A stretch of DNA of 64,000 bases. Source: Psychroflexus lacisalsi (GTDB taxonomy: Bacteria; Bacteroidota; Bacteroidia; Flavobacteriales; Flavobacteriaceae). The position numbers and the translations under genes were made by a program. Every line of letters starts with the position of its first letter. Positions within the stretch are counted from its first letter, which is position 1. The notes under the pieces were generated by a model. It worked only from the letters and a program-made list of their open reading frames with translations, made no database searches and had not been told where the DNA came from. Below are positions 20,536 to 22,361 of the stretch, in pieces. The stretch covers positions 930,001 through 994,000 of the forward strand of contig NZ_JAIQYZ010000001.1 of the NCBI RefSeq assembly GCF_020164495.1, in the 5' to 3' direction.

Positions 20536-20973
20536 TTATTTAGACATTTCCTCTTCTTTAGGGTTTTCTTGATAATATTGAATTTTAACTTTTTTCTTGC
20601 CCCATTCGAGAGCGGCTTCTTCATCAAGTCCCATGTAGACGTCTATTTTCTTCTCCCAGCGTTTATTCATTTTGTCTTTTACAATGTAGGTACCTTCCAA
20701 TCCTTCTATTTGTACCTCATCATTATGACTGAGTCCCATTTTAATAAGATCCCTAGATATAGCTATAGCTTTTTCTCCTGGAACTAAAGTGTCCCCCCAA
20801 GCTGCAAGTCCAATATTTCCTTTTTTGGTCTGACTTTCCACAGAATTGTAGGCGGTCGCAGTAACTTCCATAGTCACAAGAGTTTTATTTTCTTTATCAT
20901 TTTTACATCCTGAAAAGATAGAGGCTAATGCTAGAGTGGCAGTGAGTCCTAAAGTTTTGTAGTTATACTTCAT
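20536..20973 (-). CDS. 3D-domain lipoprotein
   Basis: 145 residues. The N-terminal signal ends in the lipobox SIFSGC (Cys at residue 22), so it is a lipoprotein. The mature part is a 3D (Asp-Asp-Asp) domain as in MltA/RpfB-type double-psi beta-barrels: VTATAYN near 36-42, then AISRDLIKMGL, GTYIVKDKMNKRWEKKIDVYMG and WGKKKVKIQYY. In other proteins this domain sits in lytic transglycosylases, but the free-standing form has unknown activity. It stands alone on the minus strand between two plus-strand transport genes. Confidence 0.82.
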   Translation of the reverse strand: MKYNYKTLGLTATLALASIFSGCKNDKENKTLVTMEVTATAYNSVESQTKKGNIGLAAWGDTLVPGEKAIAISRDLIKMGLSHNDEVQIEGLEGTYIVKDKMNKRWEKKIDVYMGLDEEAALEWGKKKVKIQYYQENPKEEEMSK

Positions 20974-21164
20974 AAAATTTTTTTCTTATAATACACAAAA
21001 TATTTTATAAACATAGTTAAAGCGATCATAAGCTATAGCTAGAAAATTTGTCTGCTTTTGTTGGGTTAGCTTATAAATACTCTTTGGTTAACTTAAGGTA
21101 CTATGAAGGCAAAATTGGTTTTGGCCTATAATTTTAGTAATATCGAACTTAAAATTTATAGACT

Positions 21165-22238
21165 ATGAAATTTATTTTAAGTGTATTGATCATTGCTTTT
21201 TTATGCCCTGTTTCTAATGGTTTAGCCCAACAAGACACGTTGACCAATAAAGCTAAAGAACTAAAAATTGGAGTTTTTGTGACTCCACCGTTTGTAATGG
21301 AGAACAATGGGAAATTCTCAGGACTAAGTATTTCATCATGGGAATTGGTTAATAAGGACTTACAACAATCTTACGAGTATATCCAGTATGGGTCTTTAAA
21401 AAATCTGTTGGAAGCAATAGAAAAAAAGGAGATCGATTTTAGTATAAACCCTGTGACGGTCACCAATAGTAGGATGGAACGTTTGGCATTTTCTCAGCCT
21501 TATTTTATATCTAAAACAGCAGTTGCCAAACGCAAGCAAAGTCAGACTTGGATATTTATTAAAAACTTATGGAGCTGGAAATTTATTTCTGCAGTGCTGA
21601 TATTAATAAGTGTTATCTTCATTTTTGGAGTTTTGGTCTGGTTATTCGAGCGGCATAAAAATAAAGAAGAATTCGGAGGGAAAGGTCTAAGTGGAATCCA
21701 AGAAGGCTTTTGGTGGAGTGCTGTGACTATGACTACGGTTGGTTATGGAGATAAATCACCTAAAACCACGGGTGGTAGACTAGTAGGTCTAGTCTGGATG
21801 TTTGCGGCTATTATAATGATTTCAAGTTTAACTGCTGGTATTGCTTCAGCCTTAACTATTCAAAACATCAATAATAGTATAAGTAGCGTAGAAGATCTAG
21901 ACAGGTTTGAAACGACTACGGTTGCAAATTCCAGCGCAGCAGAACTGCTGGATTTATACCGTATCGATACTGAAACGGTATTTGACGAAAAAGAAGGGGT
22001 GCAAAACTTACTGGACGAAAAGACCACACTCTTTGTATACGATGAACCCATTATCAGTTATGAAATCCAACGCAGATCGCTCGAAGATGACATTGAAATC
22101 CTTCCACAAGGTCTAAAAAAAGACTACTACAGCTATACTTTTTCTAAAGGCTCTGATTTACTATCCCAAATTGACCCTGTTCTTGTGAGTACTTTGAAAA
22201 CTATGGAATGGAGTAAGCTATTGGAGAAATATCAATAA
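21165..22238 (+). CDS. GluR0-like ligand-gated potassium channel (prokaryotic ionotropic glutamate receptor type)
   Basis: 357 residues in the full prokaryotic iGluR order. A signal peptide (1-22) is followed by the S1 lobe of a type-3 solute-binding domain (~30-123), TM1 (~140-161), a pore helix and filter TMTTVGYGD (188-196), TM2 (~207-229) and the S2 lobe (~232-357). The filter is that of potassium channels, as in GluR0. In S1, residues 96-113 contain P96, T98 and R103 followed by FSQPY, matching the spacing of the ligand-binding Pro, Thr and Arg of animal AMPA receptors. S2 has NSS (255-257) and YDEP (292-295) where ligand contacts are expected. It should be an inner-membrane channel opened by a periplasmic amino acid. 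It is monocistronic, ends in a strong terminator, and its physiological role is unknown. Confidence 0.87.
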   Translation: MKFILSVLIIAFLCPVSNGLAQQDTLTNKAKELKIGVFVTPPFVMENNGKFSGLSISSWELVNKDLQQSYEYIQYGSLKNLLEAIEKKEIDFSINPVTVTNSRMERLAFSQPYFISKTAVAKRKQSQTWIFIKNLWSWKFISAVLILISVIFIFGVLVWLFERHKNKEEFGGKGLSGIQEGFWWSAVTMTTVGYGDKSPKTTGGRLVGLVWMFAAIIMISSLTAGIASALTIQNINNSISSVEDLDRFETTTVANSSAAELLDLYRIDTETVFDEKEGVQNLLDEKTTLFVYDEPIISYEIQRRSLEDDIEILPQGLKKDYYSYTFSKGSDLLSQIDPVLVSTLKTMEWSKLLEKYQ

Positions 22239-22333: not shown

Positions 22334-22361
22334 AAAAAAACCGTCAGTTATGACGGTTTTT
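22334..22361 (+). terminator. Rho-independent terminator after the GluR0-like gene
   Basis: Stem arms AAAAACCGTCA (22336-22346) and TGACGGTTTTT (22351-22361) enclose a GTTA loop, giving a GC core plus a T-run on the plus strand. It lies ~100 bases after the channel gene and may also serve the converging AraC-type gene. Confidence 0.85.

Follow-up and report, generated by a model that had tools for sequence, protein, structure and literature searches.

The gene described here lies in the window (the whole 64,000-nucleotide stretch of Psychroflexus lacisalsi DNA that was analysed) and very probably encodes a GluR0-type K+ channel, which a putative amino-acid ligand would open. Such a channel is an established kind of protein; the fresh part of the analysis is its linkage, in several related genera, to a gene for a putative lipoprotein, here called lip. 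The features are collected in Table 1.

Table 1. Features of the channel gene and its surroundings, in positions of the window.
Feature	Position	Strand	Basis
GluR0-like (Group 1 prokaryotic iGluR) K+ channel gene, 357 aa	21165..22238	+	ORF, Pfam, PDB sequence matches, model, folds
N-terminal hydrophobic stretch, likely signal peptide, residues 1-21	21165..21227	+	sequence reading; model helix 2-12
S1 half, ligand-binding domain, residues 33-122	21261..21530	+	Pfam, PDB sequence matches
Ligand motif P96-x-T98-x4-R103...FSQPY113	21450..21503	+	conservation in 55 close sequences
M1 helix, residues 138-162	21576..21650	+	model
Pore helix and TVGYGD selectivity filter, residues 175-196	21687..21752	+	alignments, model
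M2 helix (iGluR M3 equivalent), gate motif SLTAGIASALT, residues 202-232	21768..21860	+	model
S2 half, ligand-binding domain, residues 236-356, including S256-S257 and D293	21870..22232	+	Pfam, PDB alignment, conservation
Divergent neighbour lip, 145-aa putative lipoprotein, weak 3D-domain similarity	20536..20973	-	PF06725, N-terminus
lip-channel divergent intergenic region, 191 bp	20974..21164		ORF positions; same arrangement in G514 (L195/L205)
Terminator-like hairpin between channel and converging AraC-type gene	22336..22361		terminator scan, folding

Domain architecture and fold of the channel

The channel ORF starts with ATG, and its product is ordered as an N-terminal hydrophobic stretch, S1, M1, a TVGYGD pore loop, M2 and S2, which is the order of the bacterial iGluR GluR0. 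The split SBP halves flank two transmembrane helices and a pore loop, as in Group 1 prokaryotic iGluRs. The Pfam model SBP_bac_3 matched residues 33-356 with 71 bits, split around the pore, and Lig_chan matched residues 146-250 with 68.4 bits, both above the cut-off. Ion_trans_2 matched residues 147-230 with 49.7 bits against a cut-off of 22.5 and, together with TVGYGD, gives the protein the signature of a K+ channel. In its own genome, the single Lig_chan match at E <= 0.001 is this channel, and SBP_bac_3 is found in two proteins, the channel and an MltF-like protein carrying SBP_bac_3 and SLT domains.

The filter reads T190-T-V-G-Y-G-D196, and the model places a pore helix at residues 175-189. 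The M2 gate motif was aligned with the SYTANLAAFLT region of GluA2 in the PDB sequence alignment. Beyond the N-terminal stretch, the model of the 357-residue protein contains two helices of transmembrane length; there is neither an ATD nor an M4, as expected of the GluR0 type. The N-terminus is hydrophobic in both the sequence and the model, at the place where a cleavable signal peptide with an N-out topology would be expected. The eukaryotic binding-site model Lig_chan-Glu_bd scored 21.2 bits, below its Pfam cut-off of 30, and the channel lacks the features of a eukaryotic iGluR (Lig_chan-Glu_bd at cut-off, an ATD, an M4 and a non-GYG pore).

An AlphaFold2 (AF2) model of the channel, built on 52 aligned channels including that of the window, had a pLDDT of 91.7 and a pTM of 0.80. 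The best PDB sequence matches were the GluR0-type core of Nostoc punctiforme NpGluR3 (2pyy), GluA2 and Synechocystis GluR0 (1iit/1ii5). When the model was searched with Foldseek, all 50 matches listed were AMPA-receptor chains (top E 1.5e-20), with query-normalised TM-scores of 0.50-0.68. The earlier note had proposed that the S1-S2 structure be predicted and compared with GluR0, and the AF2 binding domain does superpose: in VIA-align, the glutamate-bound Nostoc GluR0 core 2pyy came first (Z 28.8, 1.9 Å over 210 residues) and Synechocystis GluR0 1ii5 second (Z 28.0, 2.1 Å over 218 residues). The next row was an engineered glutamine-binding protein (8eyz, Z 27.6), with other glutamine-binding proteins below it. 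Rows less than 1 Z apart count as tied, so the ligand-binding domain is about equally near to GluR0 and to the glutamine-binding proteins (28.0 vs 27.6), and the fold therefore names the superfamily, not the ligand.

Distribution of the channel and its linkage to lip

A near-full-length channel match was present in at least 45 of 299 Flavobacteriaceae genomes (E <= 3.7e-42, own genome included); the same search tallied 277 of the 299, mostly with matches over the pore alone. In the window's genus, 3 of 27 genomes have a close orthologue, with four more distant copies besides; in four other genera the figures are 13/15, 24/24, 6/6 and 8/12 (E <= 1e-80). A close channel is present in 7 of the 299 family genomes. 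Two copies, G215:C1:3729913-3730961 and G201:C1:3086870-3087855, are split or carry stops and are apparently decaying.

Full-length relatives occur in Bacteroidota, Gammaproteobacteria, Alphaproteobacteria, cyanobacteria, Planctomycetes and Desulfobacterota, the most divergent being those of Acidimicrobiia; this cross-phylum set comprises the best 80 of at least 489 stretches confirmed in a contig scan. For the Acidimicrobiia channels L143-L146, the start called by script gives a charged N-terminal extension, not a stretch resembling a signal peptide. Eighteen plasmid records contained a channel match over >= 80% of the query, with 24-31% identity among the matches listed. The plasmid channels (H1-H12) are mostly alphaproteobacterial, and 10 of the 12 listed are named 'transporter substrate-binding domain-containing protein'; this generic naming may be why the channel group is overlooked. 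A 2010 survey reported 23 prokaryotic iGluR sequences from 971 prokaryotic genomes, in very few species (PMC2924276). Bacterial iGluR homologues had likewise been called few in the earlier note, which does not agree with the counts in this family and the presence of others in several phyla. Among the top open-licence matches in PMC, judged by title and the start of the abstract, there was no paper on iGluRs in Flavobacteriia.

The gene order in the window is a SulP-like permease (+), lip (-), the channel (+), an AraC-type regulator (-) and Rho (-); the AraC and Rho genes were named by sequence reading, and SulP from a match below the cut-off of its model. A sigma-70 scan gave no more promoter-like sites than shuffled sequence (10 vs a mean of 8.9). 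The hairpin begins 97 nt past the channel stop codon and has a folding energy of -14.3 kcal/mol (z -6.5). The channel gene had been described as standing alone with its own terminator. A hairpin does lie 3' of the channel; however, the terminator scan placed it (22336-22361) solely on the minus strand, and it may therefore act for the converging gene or for the two together. Standing alone holds for transcription and orientation within the window but is misleading as a general description, given that, in three other genera, 40 of 43 loci have a same-strand lip upstream of the channel.

These loci are divided among the genera g32 (10/13), g236 (24/24) and g101 (6/6), and in each of the 40 lip lies directly upstream of the channel (among loci L004, L006, L007 and L215-L253, with about 1.5 kb of flank covered). 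The gaps of the 40 pairs range from -4 to +87 nt and are 14 nt or less in 11; their starts were chosen by script, and the 12-nt gap of L241, where the channel start is not ATG, is unsure. The two genes are also adjacent, in divergent orientation, in two of the three channel loci of the window's genus (the window and its congener G514). At a position about 20-25 nt before the channel start, TTCG was noted by eye in 20 of the 24 g236 gap ends (L007, L226-L248), and this recurrent sequence is perhaps an internal promoter element.

Gene order of this kind suggests a functional link between the channel and lip, and it would point to a connection with the cell wall. In one reading the two form a functional unit: lip would cut or bind peptidoglycan, and the channel would sense a wall-derived amino acid or adjust turgor during wall remodelling. 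The short same-strand gaps in three genera and the divergent adjacency at another locus favour this reading. We nonetheless consider it unlikely, as lip does not adjoin the channel in any of the eight loci of the fourth genus g8, in 3 of 13 g32 loci, in G493 or in Gillisia, and was not found beside the more distant channels in the loci scanned (L003-L031, for which only about 1.5 kb of flank was covered, L082-L147 and L163-L168). Moreover, the same-strand pair of the three genomes compared belongs to a single block that also includes an aspartokinase gene, found in the family scan, and an FKBP-like gene, named by sequence reading. The genomes within a genus are not independent, and much of the three-genus linkage may be plain synteny. 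A similar block with lip and without the channel is present in G031, G007 and G241. The channel of G031 (L163:7980-14787) adjoins, on sequence reading, a porin-like gene and a pst-like cluster for phosphate uptake.

The pair of the window and of G514 lies elsewhere, between SulP on its upstream side and AraC and Rho on its downstream side. In a tree of lip, the window copy groups with its own genus and two other genomes, apart from those of g32, g236 and g101. On this grouping, the channel came to lie beside lip genes native to each lineage at two separate loci, provided that the adjacency is not ancestral with the genes having moved. Both an ancestral linkage with later loss and two independent juxtapositions fit the channel tree, whose backbone lacks resolution.

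Homologues of lip were found in 125 of the 299 family genomes at E <= 0.001, each genome having a single match, which is weak or partial in two; most of these genomes lack a close channel, which also speaks against a functional unit. The N-terminus and Cys23, both read by eye, mark lip as a putative lipoprotein, and Cys23 is kept in at least 90% of 25 lip proteins. The match of lip to PF06725 (3D domain) has an E-value of 8.1e-4 and 20.0 bits against a cut-off of 23.8, so that the window copy does not reach the gathering score; PF06725 was matched at E up to 0.1 in 11 of 25 lip relatives (best 1.7e-4). D61, D75, D100 and D111 are invariant in all 25 lip proteins. The spacing of 11 between D100 and D111 equals that of D151-D162 in YuiC and D297-D308 in MltA, a likeness of spacing only. 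In the source on these enzymes, D162 of YuiC is given as the catalytic carboxylate and D308A of MltA as inactive (PMC4499186).

The invariant Asp residues and the shared spacing of 11 lend a functional unit some further support, as does the position of lip beside genes of one family in 6 of the 12 genomes of the window's genus that carry it; the one copy of that neighbour scanned (L197) is a Mur ligase. Against this, lip remains below the Pfam cut-off, the D75-D100 spacing of 25 differs from the 22 of YuiC D129-D151 (D75 as the first Asp being a guess), and neither sequence nor profile searches of the PDB matched lip to YuiC, MltA or any other 3D enzyme. RESC8, the single PDB profile match of lip (E 0.0065), was judged to be a chance match. 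A profile comparison showed no relation between lip and the channel, and the single-sequence model of lip (pLDDT 47) was too poor for use.

The boldest form of the reading is that, in a clade of Flavobacteriaceae, the iGluR-type K+ channel and a 3D-type wall-cleaving lipoprotein are one envelope-sensing unit, in which the lipoprotein would remodel peptidoglycan and the channel would read a periplasmic wall-derived amino acid (D-Glu, D-Ala or diaminopimelate) and reset K+ and turgor. This form we hold to be less likely still. Peptidoglycan fragment release signalling to a receptor has been proposed for the analogous Rpf proteins (PMC4499186). If the envelope-sensing unit were true, ionotropic receptors would have a cell-wall-monitoring role in bacteria.

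Ligand-contact residues

The motif in S1 reads P96-V-T98-V-T-N-S-R103...F109-S-Q-P-Y113; P96, T98 and R103 are located where the earlier note had placed them. The PDB sequence alignment pairs R103 with the Arg and D293 with the Asp of GluR0, so that the S1 Arg and S2 Asp of the GluR0 family are both present by alignment; the S2 piece of that alignment is weak when taken alone (8.7 bits for GluR0 and 14.4 for 2pyy). The pairing of R103 with the GluR0 Arg and the superposition on glutamate-bound GluR0 structures argue indirectly against an R103 that points away from the inter-lobe cleft. The S1 Arg is described as holding the alpha-carboxylate and the S2 Asp the alpha-amino group, and both residues are reported to be fully conserved across Groups 1 and 2 (PMC2950845). 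Across 55 close sequences, window included, P96, T98, T100, R103, Y113, S256, S257 and D293 are invariant, as are V192-D196 of the filter, and S110 is kept in 54. Conservation in 55/55 close sequences indicates that the motif and the filter are not due to chance. Together with the Pfam matches, the PDB alignment, the model and the fold, it bears out the identification of a GluR0-like split-SBP K+ channel.

In a wider family set of 50 (49 homologues and the window), P96 and R103 are present in 50, D293 in 48 and T98 in 34. This set omits the near-full-length G054 and G274 and the broken or split G201 and G215, and 26 of its 49 homologues, with the window, make up alignment A1. Seven family members (L041, L042, L044-L048) have the filter TTGYGD instead of TVGYGD. 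Among 52 bacterial channels from many phyla, P96 is present in 26 (Ala in 23), R103 in 46 and D293 in 50. The latter set takes in the window and 51 of those 80 loci, leaving out partial or very divergent matches and also the full-length L105, L116, L123, L127, L131, L136, L140, L141 and L143-L146. The aligned S1 Arg is absent from L113, L114, L115, L121, L126 and L129 (two Desulfobacterota, two Bacteroidales and two Martelella); in L113 an Arg lies one position earlier, and its absence may be an alignment slip.

Because T98 is kept in 34/50, D293 is missing in 2/50 and the aligned R103 is missing in 6/52, a plain amino acid need not be the ligand of all homologues. The Arg at the R103 position seems to have been lost from some bacterial channels, and the ligand of those without it may not be a free amino acid. 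Such losses of contact residues would suit a protein in which an amino-acid binding domain fused to a K+ pore serves mainly for passive K+ leak or volume control, with a ligand domain that is vestigial or meant for something other than an amino acid. It would also suit the Synechocystis knockout, whose phenotype is described as KCl-specific and for which glutamate dependence in vivo is merely proposed (PMC13099474). This is an improbable account of the present channel, with the named contact residues invariant throughout its clade and with GluR0 activity reported to need the soluble domains (PMC13099474).

The motif had also been labelled as animal-type, and that label was not borne out. GluR0 itself reads P-I-S-V-T-P-E-R at this site, with the same Pro and Arg as the channel, and half of the 52 bacterial channels have the Pro. 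NpGluR3 has Ala at the P96 position. As a control, a regular expression left open at that position was run on 30 Bacteroidota SBP_bac_3 loci (L052-L081); 21 instances in 13 genuine-looking loci were kept, several of them near-duplicates, four matches in short or unrelated frames were dropped, and 17 of the 30 loci gave no genuine match. None of the 21 had Pro at the P96 position (Cys 10, Gly 9, Asn 2), and the MltF-like SBP_bac_3 protein of the same genome has Gly there. From the GluR0 Pro, the NpGluR3 Ala and the 0/21 in other SBP_bac_3 proteins, P96 looks like a trait of channels and not of animals; on these comparisons, Pro or Ala at the position seems to go with channels, and not with animals in particular. 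Horizontal transfer from eukaryotes, or convergence on an animal receptor, is accordingly a most improbable origin: the P-x-T-x4-R identical to that of GluA2 and the place of GluA2 among the best PDB matches favour it, against the K+ filter, the missing ATD and M4, the sub-threshold Lig_chan-Glu_bd score and the bacterial occurrence of the same Pro and Arg.

Predicted gating and relation to known receptors

For the preferred reading, a GluR0-like K+ channel gated by an amino acid, we infer a signal peptide, topology, tetramer, amino-acid gating, K+ selectivity and physiological role along the following lines. The gene product would be one of the four subunits of a Group 1 channel that is K+-selective and ligand-gated. 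S1 and S2 would fold as a clamshell in the periplasm, and a free alpha-amino acid would be held between the lobes, its alpha-carboxylate at R103 and its alpha-amino group at D293. Closure of the clamshell would pull on the M2 gate and open the TVGYGD pore, which would have an inverted orientation in the membrane compared with ordinary K+ channels. K+ would then flow down its gradient and change the membrane potential and turgor.

For GluR0, a 2026 paper (PMC13099474), which its abstract presents as the first to give direct evidence that a prokaryotic iGluR has a role, reports restored growth of a K+-uptake mutant, an inverted orientation and an effect on cell volume under KCl upshock. Some cytoplasmic-side values in its topology analysis were not statistically significant (PMC13099474).

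GluR0 (Slr1257 of Synechocystis sp. PCC 6803) resembles the present channel in its published S1-M1-P-M2-S2 order with a GYG filter, in the S1 Arg and S2 Asp, and in the fold of the ligand-binding domain. It differs in that this domain is 23% identical over the structural alignment, in having Ser at the T98 position, and in coming from a different phylum. The NpGluR3 core (PDB 2pyy) is both the best fold match (26% identity) and the best PDB sequence match; its Ala at the P96 position and Ser at the T98 position are unlike the channel. The AMPA receptor GluA2 shares the ligand-binding domain and pore fold, P-x-T-x4-R and a SYTANLAA-like gate, whereas the channel has a K+ filter and no ATD or M4. 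AvGluR1, a rotifer iGluR with a K+ signature, was compared by its description only: it is likewise selective for K+ over Na+ on an iGluR body, and is gated by alanine, methionine, cysteine and glutamate (PMC12226733), but is eukaryotic.

In one bacterial family iGluR-like channels are thus frequent (at least 45 of 299 genomes), and all searched genomes of two genera have one (24/24 and 6/6). With the recurring partner gene, those two genera offer a definite context for testing, by gene deletion, what a bacterial homologue of glutamate receptors does.
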